A stretch of 64,000 bases of DNA, taken from the NCBI RefSeq assembly GCF_001422285.1, contig NZ_LMMO01000001.1, positions 596,370 through 660,369 of the forward strand, in the 5' to 3' direction. A program made the translations under genes and the position numbers. The notes beneath the pieces were generated by a model. It ran no database searches and was not told the DNA's origin. It saw only the letters and a program-made list of their open reading frames with translations. The stretch is from Frigoribacterium sp. Leaf263. Its GTDB lineage: Bacteria > Actinomycetota > Actinomycetes > Actinomycetales > Microbacteriaceae. This document shows, piece after piece, positions 5,445 through 60,688 of this stretch (its first letter is position 1; each line of letters opens with the position of its first letter).

Positions 5445-6136
5445 CTGGCCAGGGCCCTCTCGATGACGGACGTGAAGAAGGTGAGACCGTCGATGCCGCT
5501 CGACATCGCTTCGGGGGTGTCGGGGCCGAATCCCGGCTCGGTGGCGTGCTCGGGGTGCGGCATGAGGCCGACCACGTTGCCGCGCTCGTTCGTGACGCCG
5601 GCGATGTCGTCCATCGATCCGTTGGGGTTCACGCCGAGGTACCGGAAGGCGACCTGCCCCTCGCCCTCGATGCGCCTGATGGTCTCGGCGTCGGCGATGA
5701 AGCGGCCGTCGGCGTTCTTGAGGGGGATCGTGATCTCCTGCCCCTCGGTGAAGCCGTTCGTCCAGTCGGTCCTGGCGTTCTCGACGCGGAGGCGCTGGTC
5801 GCGACGGATGAACTGCTGGTGCGCGTTGCGGGTGTGCGCGCCCGGGATGAGCCGCGCCTCCGCCAGCATCTGGAAGCCGTTGCAGATGCCGAGCACGGGC
5901 ACGCCCTTGTTCGCGGCGTCGACGACCTCCGTCATGATCGGCGAGAACGACGCGATGGCGCCGGCCCGCAGGTAGTCGCCGTAGCTGAAGCCGCCGGGCA
6001 GGATGATCGCGTCGACCCCCTGCAGGTCGTGGTCGCCGTGCCAGAGGGCCACGGGCTCGCCCCCCGCGAGGCGGACCGCGCGCTGCGCGTCGCGGTCGTC
6101 GAGGGAGCCGGGGAAGGTGACGACGCCGACGCGCAT
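5441..6136 (-). CDS. purQ: Phosphoribosylformylglycinamidine synthase, glutaminase subunit PurQ
   Basis: A 231-aa class I glutamine amidotransferase that hydrolyses glutamine and passes ammonia to PurL. The nucleophile cysteine sits in [12 protein letters not shown], and the His-Glu partners are in [10 protein letters not shown] near the C-terminus. The N-terminus [16 protein letters not shown] is typical of PurQ. It overlaps purS by one base and purL by four. The coding sequence contains one copy of the dispersed CCGCGCCTCC repeat (5852-5861). Confidence 0.97.
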
Positions 6137-6408
6137 CAGACGGCGGCGGGGGCGTCGGCGGAGTCGGCGACGGTGATCGACACGACGTCTTCGATGACGG
6201 AGTTCGAGAACATCTCGTCGGCCAGGCGCTGGACGTCGGCCAGGACGGCGTCGGTGACCTCGCCCTCGACGGTGACTTCGAAGCGCTTGCCGATGCGGAC
6301 GTCGGTCAGCTGCTTCTGACCGAGACGGGCCAGGGCGCCGGCGACGGCCTTGCCCTGGGGGTCGAGCAGTTCAGCCTTGGGCATGACCTCGACGACGATT
6401 GTGGGCAC
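6136..6408 (-). CDS. purS: Phosphoribosylformylglycinamidine synthase subunit PurS
   Basis: The 90-aa small subunit that bridges PurL and PurQ in the FGAM synthase complex. The sequence [20 protein letters not shown] and the late VRIGKRFEV segment are characteristic. The start is GTG at 6408, with AGGAG six bases upstream. A -10 candidate TAGACT (6453 to 6448 on the minus strand) gives a leader of about 30 nt. It is the first gene of the purSQL operon. Confidence 0.95.
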
Positions 6409-6679
6409 GTTTTACTCCTGCGGAGACGTCAGCGGGTGGACGCGACGAGTCTACGGCAGCGGGAGGCGCGGGCTCGTGGTGACCAGCGCCTCGTGGGGAT
6501 CGCGGCGAGAGCGGGGAGGAGTCACGGGGACGCGGATGCTCAGCGGAATGAGGGTGGACGCTCAGCGTCGTCATCGGAAGGGGACGCAGGATGGGTTCAG
6601 CGGTGAGGAACGTGGCCTTGTGATCGGGCCTCCTCCCGCGAAATCCGGCCGAGGGCTCCTGATCCGCCCGACGCCGCAG

Positions 6680-6715
6680 GACGCCCGGTCGGATCCCCCC
6701 GTCCGACCGGGCGTC
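6680..6715 (+). terminator. Orphan perfect hairpin
   Basis: GACGCCCGGTCGGA (6680-6693) pairs perfectly over 14 bp with TCCGACCGGGCGTC (6702-6715) around an 8-nt loop. ACCCCCTCTT follows on the plus strand. It looks like a terminator, but no gene lies upstream in that direction, so it may end a small RNA or simply block read-through into fur. Confidence 0.5.
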
Positions 6716-6782
6716 ACCCCCTCTTCCCGGCCCGTGACGGCGCCGACTGCCTGAGTCTCCGCACCGAGTGATGCTCACCTGT

Positions 6783-58647: not shown

Positions 58648-59055
58648 TCTCCGGGCTGACCCGCAGCCCTCTCGACTCCCGCCGCCGGACGCCCTGCCCC
58701 CTCCCGGCCGGCGGCGGGAACCGATCCGACACCCCGAACCAGTCGGATCGACACACCGGTCACGGCGGCCCGAACCGCCGAGACCACCCCTTCCGCGGCG
58801 GCCCGAACCGCCGCAGGAGAACCGCACCACCCGCACGGCGGCCCGAACCGCCGTGCTGCATCACCCGCACGGCGGCCCGAACCGCCGTGCTGCATCACCC
58901 GCACGGCGGCCCGAACCGCCGTGCTGCATCACCCGCACGGCGGCCCGAACCGCCTTGCTGCACCACCACCGGGAACGACCCGCTCCAGCACCACCGCTAC
59001 CCGCACCGCTCCACCCGCACCACCGCAACCCGAACCGACACCGAAGAGGCGCCCC
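58648..59055. other. Intergenic region with hairpin array
   Basis: 408 bp between the secreted-protein gene and the signal-peptidase fusion. It contains no credible gene. Its middle is the six-hairpin array (58761-58957); GAAGAGG near 59042 is the ribosome site of the next gene. Confidence 0.6.
58761..58957 (+). repeat. Array of six hairpin repeats (34-bp period)
   Basis: The 16-nt core GGCGGCCCGAACCGCC occurs at 58764, 58797, 58837, 58871, 58905 and 58939. Copies 3-5 extend to a perfect 8-bp stem CACGGCGG/CCGCCGTG with loop CCCGAA; copy 6 has one mismatch. Copies 3-6 repeat exactly every 34 bp with identical linkers (CTGCATCACCCG). The first two copies are spaced 33 and 40 bp and have different linkers. 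Confidence 0.92.
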
Positions 59056-60594
59056 GTGACCACGATCGACCTGAAGCTGCAGCCCTCGCCGGCGACAGCG
59101 TCGATCACGGTCCCGCGGGGCGCCTCTCGCTCGTCGGGCCCCTGGGTCCGCCTCCTGCTGGCGACGCTCGCCCGCACCGTGCTCGGCACGCTGCTCGGTC
59201 TGCTGCTCTGGTCGGCGGGTCCCGCCCTCATCGGCTGGACCCCCACCACGGTCATGACCGGCAGCATGGAGCCCCGCATCAGCCCCGGCGACATCATCGT
59301 CGCGAAGCCCGTCGCCGAGTCGTCGATCCACAAGGGCCAGGTGCTGCTGTTCGACGATCCCGACCACGCCGACCACCTGCGTCTGCACCGCTACCTCGAC
59401 AACGGCACCGGCACCTCCATCGTCACGAAGGGCGACGCCAACCCCGAGGCCGACTCCACCCCGATCGAGCGCAGCGCGGTCGTGGGCGTCGGGTTCCTCC
59501 GCGTGCCCTACCTCGGCATGCCGTTCGTCTGGGCGGCCGGCCACCAGTACGGCCACCTGATCGTCACGGGCAGCGTCCTCCTGCTGCTGCTCGGGGCGTC
59601 GCGTCTCGACCGCGACCTGCTCCGTGAGGCCAAGGAGGCGCGGGTCGGCTCGATCCGCACCACCGGGCTCCGGTCGGTCGCCTCCGGCATCGCGACCCGC
59701 GCCTCCTCGGCGGGCACCCGCCGTGCCCTCCGCCGTCGCGAGCGTCGTCTCGCCCGGCTCCGCGCCTCCGCCGGCGTGCTCGGCCTGATGGTCGTCGCCT
59801 CGGGTCTCGCCTTCACGCTCGTCGTGGGCGGCGGCGCCGGCGCCGCCTACTCGGCTCCGGTGGCGAACCCCGGCTCGAACTACAACGCCGACGCCAACTA
59901 CGACTGCCTCAAAGAGACGTACAGCAACGAGACCTCGTTCGGGTTCCCGTACAACGAGCTCTCGGGCACGACCACGACCGACGGCAGCAGCTTCGCCCGC
60001 GTCGGCACGCTGACCTCGGGCGCCTCGTTCGTCAGCGGGTCGTGCGCCGTGAACGACAGCCCGTCGCTGCAGCTCGACGGCTCGACCGGGCAGGTCACGA
60101 CCGCCGTCAACCTCACCGGCCAGGCGTCGTTCACCATCGAGACCTGGTTCAAGACGACCACGGCCCGCGGAGGCGCGCTCGCCTCGTTCACGACCACGCC
60201 GACCGGCACCACGACCGCCAACGCCGACCGCGCCCTCTTCATGACGAACGCCGGCCGCCTCGCCTTCGGCGTCCGCCCCACCACGTCGTCGGTGAAGACG
60301 CTCACCACGACCGGTGCGTACAACGACGGCGCCTGGCACCACGTCGTCGCCACCCTGTCGAGCACCGCCGGCACCGTCGTCTACGTCGACGGCAAGTCGG
60401 TCATCACCGACTCGACGTCGCGCACCGCCCAGTCCGCGACCGGCTACTGGCGCATCGGCTACGGCCCGCTCGCCGGCTTCACCGGCACCCCGACCAGCAA
60501 CTTCCTCGCCGGCCAGGTCGACAACAGCACCATCTACAACAACACGGCCCAGACCGCCACCGCCGTGCAGGCGCGCTTCACCGCCGGTCACTGA
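59056..60594 (+). CDS. Signal peptidase I (SipW/ER type) fused to a LamG-like lectin domain
   Basis: A 512-aa two-part membrane protein. Residues 30-180 are a type I signal peptidase of the Ser-His (S26B) kind: GSMEPRISPGD with Ser70, LHRYLD with His111 and TKGDAN with Asp127, between membrane segments near 33-57 and 165-180. A basic cytoplasmic linker (about 185-238) holds three dispersed repeats. A third hydrophobic segment (239-262) ends AGAAYSAPV, which mimics a SipW-type cleavage site. The rest (about 270-512) is an extracellular LamG/concanavalin-like jelly roll (LQLDGSTGQV, SFTIETWFKT, DGAWHHVVATL, VDGKSV). The protein may process its own lectin domain. GTG at 59056 has GAAGAGG upstream. 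Confidence 0.85.
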   Translation: MTTIDLKLQPSPATASITVPRGASRSSGPWVRLLLATLARTVLGTLLGLLLWSAGPALIGWTPTTVMTGSMEPRISPGDIIVAKPVAESSIHKGQVLLFDDPDHADHLRLHRYLDNGTGTSIVTKGDANPEADSTPIERSAVVGVGFLRVPYLGMPFVWAAGHQYGHLIVTGSVLLLLLGASRLDRDLLREAKEARVGSIRTTGLRSVASGIATRASSAGTRRALRRRERRLARLRASAGVLGLMVVASGLAFTLVVGGGAGAAYSAPVANPGSNYNADANYDCLKETYSNETSFGFPYNELSGTTTTDGSSFARVGTLTSGASFVSGSCAVNDSPSLQLDGSTGQVTTAVNLTGQASFTIETWFKTTTARGGALASFTTTPTGTTTANADRALFMTNAGRLAFGVRPTTSSVKTLTTTGAYNDGAWHHVVATLSSTAGTVVYVDGKSVITDSTSRTAQSATGYWRIGYGPLAGFTGTPTSNFLAGQVDNSTIYNNTAQTATAVQARFTAGH

Positions 60595-60630
60595 CACCGC
60601 CTCGGCGGGTCCGCGGGGGCGATCCGCGCC

Positions 60631-60688
60631 TCCTCGAGTCGCGCCTCCCTGGTCGGCGCGTCCTCGAGCCGCTCCTCCCCGGTCGGCG
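60631..60688. repeat. Two 30-bp direct repeats in the gap before corA
   Basis: 60631-60658 and 60661-60688 match at 25 of 28 positions, both starting TCCTCGAG and ending GGTCGGCG. The first unit includes a dispersed-repeat core (60641-60648), and a full CCGCGCCTCC lies just before it at 60624-60633. Confidence 0.75.

Follow-up and report, generated by a model that had tools for sequence, protein, structure and literature searches.

A dispersed ten-base word in Frigoribacterium as a candidate self-DNA uptake sequence

The window, which is the whole 64-kb stretch of Frigoribacterium sp. Leaf263 DNA analysed here, contains ORFs that read as purQ-like (5441–6136), purF-like (16524–17984) and purM-like (18056–19180), as well as a polysaccharide cluster. 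Its commonest 10-mer is CCGCGCCTCC, a non-palindromic word with 34 exact copies, 18 on the plus strand and 16 on the minus strand. A set of 100 dinucleotide shuffles gives an expectation of 1.47 copies, with a maximum of 5 in a single shuffle, which upholds the claim of a preliminary description of this DNA that the word lies far above chance (about 1.5 copies expected). That description had counted 33 copies, 18 as written and 15 reversed; its plus-strand count is right, while the minus strand holds 16. Its figure of 14 intergenic copies is reproduced by one gene model (14/34), while another, which differs in the placement of ORFs and start codons, gives 18/34. The presence of a dispersed repeat is confirmed.

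Single copies are found both within and between ORFs. On the plus strand, coding copies lie at 5852–5861 (in the purQ-like ORF), 6960–6969, 11504–11513 (absent from all 21 aligned loci), 14762–14771 (shared with loci L041 and L046), 39882–39891, 40901–40910, 46373–46382, 52491–52500, 59697–59706 and 59760–59769. Those on the minus strand lie at 10552–10561, 15788–15797 (conserved in nine of the ten named Frigoribacterium loci), 45810–45819, 50432–50441 and 59634–59643, and a further minus-strand copy is located near the end of the purM-like ORF (19142–19151). Intergenic copies are observed at 7291–7300, 13826–13835 (in 0 of 5 loci aligned there) and 60624–60633 on the plus strand, and at 6462–6471, 45068–45077, 48608–48617 and 54226–54235 on the minus strand. 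The choice of start codon decides whether two further copies, at 16381–16390 (minus) and 45167–45176 (plus), are intergenic or fall at the 5' end of a gene.

The remaining copies establish five hairpins. On the plus strand, the hairpin at 8872–8914 is formed by copies at 8875 (minus) and 8902 (plus) between convergent ORFs, with a folding energy of -43.5 kcal/mol. In some relatives its inner stem is changed, with the pairing and both motif arms kept. The hairpin at 16468–16503 (minus strand; copies at 16471, plus, and 16491, minus; -37.5 kcal/mol) lies directly past the stop codon of the purF-like ORF. The one at 50884–50918 (plus strand; copies at 50885, minus, and 50908, plus; -33.0 kcal/mol) lies 104 bases after a stop codon, with the next ORF following closely. 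At 56554–56598 (plus strand; -46.2 kcal/mol) a single arm is exact (56562, minus), the other having one changed base. These four had been named in the preliminary description, and all of them fold; a fifth, overlooked there, lies at 42413–42456 (minus strand; copies at 42416, minus, and 42444, plus; -35.7 kcal/mol). In one gene model, a stop codon lies at most about 105 bases before each of the five. None is followed by a clear T-run, so the earlier label of terminators rests on position and hairpin shape, and a role as T-less terminators is possible.

The word is equally prominent beyond the window. The whole genome (3.24 Mb) contains 1421 copies, 727 on the plus and 694 on the minus strand, against 103 for the reversed word. 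In 860 kb of this genome, CCGCGCCTCC is again the top 10-mer, with 399 copies against 14.6 expected under an order-3 Markov model. The extended consensus in these 860 kb is approximately GAC-CCGCGCCTCC-TCGG, close to the 20-mer proposed earlier from the window; the flank preferences are graded, and no consensus is observed past roughly 20 bases. Within the final TCC of the word, eight of the nine one-base changes occur at no more than 1.3 times expectation, and the remaining one is seen 9 times where 4.3 are expected. Changes at positions 1, 2 and 5, by contrast, climb to 4–7 times expectation. Among related genomes, CCGCGCCTCC is enriched in all ten sampled Frigoribacterium (842–1578 copies) and in 7 of 9 sampled Curtobacterium. 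No enrichment is seen in any of 362 genomes sampled across the other families of the order.

Within the 860 kb, 256 of 399 copies, about two thirds, are in genes, bearing out the earlier view that coding sequence tolerates the word. The density is 0.34 per kb in genes and 1.48 per kb between them, 4.4 times higher, and convergent and tandem gaps hold denser copies than divergent gaps. Of the 256 coding copies, 88 fall in the outermost tenth at either end of the gene (p = 7e-8), which confirms the gene-end preference already suspected. Coding copies run along the gene in 121 cases and against it in 135, and all six reading frames are used. Among neighbours within 60 bases of each other, 27 pairs are inverted and 9 direct; the inverted ones account for 27 of all 398 intervals from one copy to the next.

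Spacing is Poisson-like, with a mean of 4.64 and a variance of 4.53 copies per 10 kb. The longest motif-free stretch of the 860 kb lies in the window (19152–39881, 20.7 kb; GC 65% against 71% for the contig stretch) and corresponds to a polysaccharide island encoding Wzz, Wzy_C, glycosyltransferases and a sugar transferase (10 ORFs scanned); the second longest holds a 16S anchor. Since copies become more frequent as local GC increases (Spearman 0.36), the island gap may in part reflect low GC. A strand walk along the 860 kb is no larger than in shuffled data (p = 0.99). Together with the near-equal genome-wide strand counts, this sustains the earlier argument that mixed orientation speaks against a Chi- or KOPS-like polar signal. 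The complete relative G110 was sampled in 20 regions containing 105 copies, and no bisection by hand exceeds about 60:40. A weak replichore test that takes the contig start of G110 as the origin gives 43:62 (p = 0.08); no dnaA was recognised at this start.

Comparison with relatives indicates how the copies arise. When 30 coding copies were aligned with G110, 17 sites were substituted in register (1–3 bases in 11 of them, at least four in the other 6), 10 were identical and 3 were gapped, the gapped share (10%) comparing with 3.6% for random 10-mers. In the reverse direction, 10 of 24 sites were substituted, 10 identical and 4 gapped. At 15788, three Frondihabitans loci show gap-free substitution; at 19142, relatives lacking the copy have in-register substitutions and no gap; at 14762, the other aligned loci are substituted, some rows having small gaps in the flanks. 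These alignments, with in-register near-matches in relatives that lack the copy at 15788 and 19142, indicate that most coding copies come and go by mutation at the site itself. This goes against the preliminary description insofar as its "spreading element" means copied inserts, so that its interpretation is partly supported. Gapped alignments are commoner at intergenic than at coding sites, and insertion of intergenic copies is possible. For the DNA uptake sequence (DUS) of Neisseria, the relative weight of point mutation and recombination is described as debated in the accessible part of one paper (PMC2397512).

Related genera carry related words. Lists of 9-mers were drawn from single loci longer than 15 kb (of 80 loci) and from 2 × 20 kb of 30 genomes; they also include codon-like words such as CGAGCAGCA, and the words considered as dialects were chosen for an [AC]TCC core, so that the dialect reading is a selected one. 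In Curtobacterium, GCCTCCCGTCCG and CCGCGCCTCCAGG contain TCC, and the unbiased top words in two Curtobacterium are CCGCGCCTCCAGG and CCGAGCCTCCCGTCCG. GCCTCCCGTCCG has 16–569 copies in 19 Curtobacterium entries (16 distinct genomes, judged by matching counts and places) and 0–3 in five Frigoribacterium entries. GCGGCATCCG, a further word with TCC, reaches 1182–1702 copies in 3/3 genomes of g26, 1166–1358 in 5/5 of g63 and 279–2628 in 9/9 of g79, against 24–44 in ten Frigoribacterium, and does not rise above background in some small-genome genera (for example g11, g14, g31 and g59). The reversed-word control suits CCGCGCCTCC and is too low for GCGGCATCCG, whose reverse contains a rare TA step, so the contrast between genera was used for the latter. 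Among the top 9-mers from 2 × 20 kb, no [AC]TCC word is found in G002, G009, G010, G014, G016, G163 and others; G002 and G009 nevertheless carry GCGGCATCCG above control genome-wide. Alignment of the CTCC and ATCC words by eye leads us to infer that they form one lineage. By sequence, these words read as dialects with a conserved core in related taxa.

The genome contains candidate machinery for DNA uptake. The comEA gene adjoins comEC, and a Tad-type pilus locus comprises an ATPase, T2SSF, DUF4244 and an ORF with a weak TadE/G-like match. ComEC is present in all 46 genomes searched and the T2SSE ATPase in all 30 searched, with or without a strong motif, so this machinery does not discriminate motif-rich genomes. 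In the classical uptake-sequence families, the receptor is a minor pilin of the type IV pilus, shown or predicted according to the consulted portions of the literature.

Type IVa pilus genes, found in most relatives, are absent from the window genome and also missing in CFBP 13712 and F. faeni NBRC 103066 (taken as G330 by matching counts). PilM is found in 8/10 Frigoribacterium and all nine Curtobacterium entries, a distribution that at first pointed to this pilus as reader of the motif, but PilM is missing in the window genome and G330. The 4.5 kb before rpsL in the window genome hold rpoC and no pilus gene. PilO is not found in the 0.6 kb before the DUF6121 gene of G330, an absence that proves little, as an equally short stretch of G298, which has PilM, contains no PilO either. 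Since type IVa genes are not found in the window genome, a type IVa minor pilin is an unlikely receptor there, which leaves a Tad-type pilin or ComEA as possible candidates. Genomes lacking these genes do not have fewer copies. For two pilus-less Frigoribacterium, exact copies number 0.63 and 0.59 times the one-mismatch copies, within the range of the other eight (0.33–0.81), and hence no motif decay is seen. Furthermore, the PilM-less Compostimonas, G003 and G007 hold GCGGCATCCG above control, Compostimonas being GCGGCATCCG-rich. The type IVa pilus as reader of the motif was therefore dropped.

We propose that CCGCGCCTCC forms the core of a sequence by which Frigoribacterium recognises its own DNA for uptake, working like the DUS of Neisseriaceae and the uptake signal sequence (USS) of Pasteurellaceae, a reading that we judge somewhat better than even. 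A putative surface DNA receptor of the competence apparatus would bind DNA bearing CCGCGCCTCC, which would then enter and recombine more often. Copies would build up by mutation and biased transformation wherever genes tolerate the word, and inverted copies would be retained as hairpins at gene ends. Receptor and tag would evolve together, giving dialects around the common TCC in related genera. As the genome has no type IVa genes, the type IVa route is set aside for a predicted one through a Flp/Tad-type pilus, ComEA and ComEC, as reported for Micrococcus luteus. A broader version, to which we give slightly less than even confidence, is that many Microbacteriaceae genera mark their chromosomes with their own TCC-based dialect, in hundreds to 2,600 copies, as a family-wide code read by the receptor of an uptake system with a Flp/Tad-type pilus and ComEA/ComEC.

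The copies might instead be binding sites of a chromosome-organising or other intracellular DNA-binding protein, selected for binding. The even, Poisson-like spread and high copy number are compatible with this, lineage-specific words could be co-evolving sites, and counts are high in genomes without type IVa pili. However, binding alone leaves the inverted pairs past stop codons unexplained, and organising sites of similar length (parS, matS, SlmA and Noc sites) are fewer and regionally placed. We consider this explanation unlikely.

More doubtful is a recombination signal of the Chi kind, recognised by RecBCD, AdnAB or a related enzyme. Like E. coli Chi, CCGCGCCTCC is an abundant, short, non-palindromic and lineage-specific word, near Chi in abundance and with copies in genes. 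Chi is strand-polar, whereas CCGCGCCTCC is symmetric and often paired: polarity is seen neither in the strand counts nor in the strand walk, and the G110 regions, in which the origin was not located, show no more than about 60:40. Intergenic enrichment and inverted pairs are also unlike Chi. We see still less reason to expect that DNA modification, restriction or mutation bias maintains the word, in the manner of cyanobacterial HIP1, which is likewise abundant, short, dispersed and tolerated in genes. HIP1 is an 8-base palindrome and CCGCGCCTCC is not palindromic, and a methylase site would hardly specify ten bases and have graded flanks.

Two explanations seem very improbable to us. A spreading repeat of the REP/BIME type, inserting copies, would be in keeping with hairpin pairs at gene ends and with several intergenic sites that align with gaps, but not with the 17/30 substituted against 3/30 gapped coding copies, the use of all six frames or a consensus that ends at roughly 20 bases. 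A terminator word with coding copies as by-products would account for the inverted pairs past stop codons, the favoured convergent and tandem gaps and the five window hairpins, yet inverted pairs within 60 bases fill just 27 of 398 intervals, genes hold 256 of the 399 copies, in either orientation, and a hairpin needs no fixed sequence, while here the word is fixed and the inner stems vary.

To our knowledge, uptake sequences have been described in two Gram-negative families only, the Neisseriaceae and the Pasteurellaceae, and we know of none in Gram-positives. Among the matches listed in the open-access literature, mostly as a title and the start of an abstract, none reports such words in Actinobacteria, and the literature searched holds no report of competence in Frigoribacterium or Curtobacterium (the latter judged by title). 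If CCGCGCCTCC is an uptake sequence, it would be the first Gram-positive system known to us, of an origin independent of the two classical ones. It would also hint that Frigoribacterium and Curtobacterium are capable of natural transformation, and at the tag for working with them. It has long been asked whether uptake sequences exist because kin DNA is selected for or because the receptor drives their accumulation; with its many genera, several dialects and clades that lack type IVa pili, the actinobacterial case would offer an independent origin on which to test this.

The proposed uptake sequence differs from the USS in its word and phylum, and its flanks show no spaced AT tracts, a feature of the USS. 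The two are alike in a short graded consensus with flank preferences, and the genic share of about two thirds compares with 65% of USS copies in genes in H. influenzae, as given in the available part of the source (PMC1939737). In the accessible text of the M. luteus study, tad genes and comEC are required for transformation and the term "uptake sequence" does not appear (PMC4322843); that species likewise is an actinobacterium with comEA, comEC and Tad-type genes. The DUS, as described in the consulted sections of two papers, is found inside genes and in inverted pairs linked to terminators, prefers the core genome and forms taxon-specific dialects around a 3-base core (PMC3630211, PMC2397512). 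CCGCGCCTCC resembles it in its length of about ten bases, its order of a thousand copies or more, its genic copies and inverted pairs, and its dialects. The differences lie in the Gram-positive, high-GC actinobacterial host, in the shared core (TCC here, CTG in the DUS) and in the reader, a ComP-like receptor there and a putative receptor here, in a genome without type IVa genes. The polarity of Chi (with the origin not located), the unit insertion of REP/BIME (in coding sequence), a clear T-run as in intrinsic terminators and the palindrome of HIP1 are not observed for CCGCGCCTCC. With DUS and USS it has in common over-representation, a lack of polarity, the gene and intergenic pattern, change in place, dialects and the presence of competence genes.

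The ten-base word CCGCGCCTCC outnumbers every other 10-mer in the window, with 18 copies on the plus and 16 on the minus strand. The excess claimed in the preliminary description is indeed far above chance (1.47 copies expected), with an exact total of 34 rather than the 33 given there. The window spans positions 596,370-660,369 of contig NZ_LMMO01000001.1. In the whole genome of Frigoribacterium sp. Leaf263 (3.24 Mb, ten contigs), the word occurs 727 times in forward and 694 times in reverse orientation, and its control, the same letters read backwards, 53 and 50 times. The Markov comparison proposed in that description bears out the excess: 860 contiguous kb of contig NZ_LMMO01000001.1 contain 399 copies versus 14.6 expected from an order-3 model, the highest excess score of all 10-mers.

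The extended consensus in these 860 kb is approximately GAC-CCGCGCCTCC-TCGG, and the flank preference fades after roughly seven bases on the upstream and six on the downstream side. One-mismatch forms are over-represented at positions 1, 2 and 5, the change from C to A at position 2 being seen 48 times versus 6.5 expected. In the final TCC, eight of the nine one-base changes occur at no more than 1.3 times expectation, and the ninth is found 9 times versus 4.3.

According to our own gene models, 256 of the copies in the 860 kb are coding, 142 intergenic and one lies at an edge, giving densities of 0.34 per kb in coding versus 1.48 per kb in intergenic DNA. Among gaps, the density is 2.05 per kb in convergent, 1.69 in tandem and 0.69 in divergent ones. 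Coding copies are read in all six frames (24, 32 and 65 on the same strand; 57, 7 and 71 on the opposite strand), and 88 of the 256 fall within the outermost tenth at either end of their gene. Neighbouring copies at most 60 bases apart are inverted in 27 cases and direct in 9, with 17 bases as the most frequent gap between inverted neighbours; apart from these close pairs, counts per 10 kb resemble a Poisson distribution (mean 4.64, variance 4.53). Copy number rises with local GC (Spearman 0.36), and the longest stretch free of the word (20.7 kb, window positions 19152-39881) is a polysaccharide cluster with a GC content of 65%. The second longest, at 588-602 kb of the contig, holds a 16S anchor and is thus partly rRNA. 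Other repetitive DNA in the window includes a hairpin-forming 34-base unit in tandem copies (58790-58993) and a repetitive stretch (54780-55251) within a 697-residue ORF (54450-56543) that reads as Arg/Asp-rich.

Alignment of the contig to 400 kb of a complete Frigoribacterium relative, G110, covers 102 kb at 82% identity. Of 30 coding copies in our genome, 10 are identical in G110, 11 differ at one to three positions, 6 at four or more and 3 are gapped; random 10-mers in this alignment are 24.7% identical and 3.6% gapped. In the reciprocal direction, 24 coding copies of G110 comprise 10 identical, 10 substituted and 4 gapped sites. Of five aligned intergenic copies of our genome, three are identical and two gapped. 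At position 19142, the word is present in five of seven aligned Frigoribacterium loci and missing from two, and copy-less relatives have in-register sequences such as CGGCGCCGCC and CCGCGCCGCC. In the hairpin at 8872-8914, two relatives (loci L042 and L044) keep both motif arms, and their inner stem has changed from GTCCTG/CAGGAC to TGACCG/CGGTCA with pairing kept.

We surveyed 398 genomes of the family, ours included, for counts above 100 that are also two-fold over those of the reversed word. Named purF loci and identical PilM coordinates identify two of the genera as Frigoribacterium (e.g. Leaf8, PhB160, F. endophyticum) and Curtobacterium (e.g. ER1/6, MCBA15_008). All ten Frigoribacterium genomes are enriched (842 to 1578 copies; controls 52 to 148). 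Ten Frigoribacterium purF loci of 17-21 kb (L041-L050) contain between 10 and 17 copies each. Seven of nine Curtobacterium genomes exceed twice the control, with 216-688 copies, the other two having 79 and 94, as does one of nine genomes in a third genus, g55 (399 copies, control 142). Reading through the list, we saw none that reach this standard among the remaining 370 family genomes, nor do any of the 362 other-family genomes among 396 drawn from the order. Locus L107, labelled Frigoribacterium sp. CG_9.8, has no copy, and its genome carries 289 copies of another dialect, GCGGCATCCG, instead, which makes the label doubtful.

Unbiased 200-kb samples of two Curtobacterium genomes yield as top words CCGCGCCTCCAG in G379 and CGGACGGGAGGC (reversed, GCCTCCCGTCCG) in G327, where CCGCGCCTCC is at background only; their consensus lines are CCGCGCCTCCAGGCCG and CCGAGCCTCCCGTCCG. 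In 19 Curtobacterium entries, three of which duplicate a genome, GCCTCCCGTCCG has 16 to 569 copies, and five Frigoribacterium entries have between 0 and 3, with reversed controls of at most 5; among the places listed for Curtobacterium G257, many are inverted pairs 32 bases apart. Many other genera have a word form with ATCC in place of CTCC. GCGGCATCCG reaches 1182-1702 copies in genus g26 (3/3 genomes), 1166-1358 in g63 (5/5) and 279-2628 in g79 (9/9), as well as 1073 in Compostimonas suwonensis and 673 in Salinibacterium sedimenticola; counts are low in ten Frigoribacterium (24-44) and nine Curtobacterium genomes (37-64). The favoured words are GCGCATCC in Microcella putealis and CAGGATCCG in Frondihabitans. 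TCC is common to CCGCGCCTCC and all these dialect words, and we infer a shared ancestry of the ATCC and CTCC forms. Some genera have no such word, judged by top-word samples or by genome-wide counts of GCGGCATCCG.

Different enriched words appear in G125 (CATTCGTGA, 18 copies in 40 kb, L241-L242) and G017 (AGGGCCGCA, 17 copies in 40 kb, L229-L230). At four loci of Curtobacterium G379 (L185, L186, L188, L189), AAGTGCGATCTC forms inverted pairs that recur in short arrays, the pairs about 100-200 bases apart, with the look of a separate repeat of the REP/BIME kind.

ComEC is found in all 46 genomes searched. In ours, comEC lies directly downstream of comEA, whose product combines SLBB and helix-hairpin-helix domains and passes the TIGR00426 cut-off. 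Downstream of a Tad-type ATPase (TIGR03819, 1e-120), the only protein of this genome above the T2SSE cut-off, come T2SSF, DUF4244 and an ORF whose TadE/G-like match stays below threshold. G110 and other Frigoribacterium have a type IVa pilus operon beside rpsL, encoding in G110 an N-methylated pilin, prepilin peptidase, PilM and PilO. This operon is missing from the 4.5 kb read at rpsL in our genome (L269), which contain ORFs read as rpoC and as acetyltransferase-like, followed by a DUF6121 gene and rpsL. PilM was not found anywhere in our genome; G330 (F. faeni NBRC 103066 by matching counts) has neither PilM nor a second ATPase over the cut-off, and decay of CCGCGCCTCC is seen in neither genome. 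The genomes of L041 and L046 also lack PilM. The copy at window position 11504 is absent from all 21 loci aligned there, L041 and L046 among them, and this sequence comparison points to a gain in that clade, or a loss elsewhere.

In sequence-level tests, CCGCGCCTCC resembles an uptake word in its abundance, symmetry, placement and dialects and in how its copies change in place, and we consider it somewhat more likely than not to be an uptake word read by a Tad/ComEA-type system. PMC4322843 reports that transformation in an actinobacterium requires tad genes and comEC. Known uptake words are described with a largely similar profile: PMC3630211 presents dialects, a three-base core and inverted pairs, PMC1939737 gives a figure of 65% for H. 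influenzae, and PMC2397512 attributes to such words a preference for the core genome, terminator pairs and absence from recently acquired genes.
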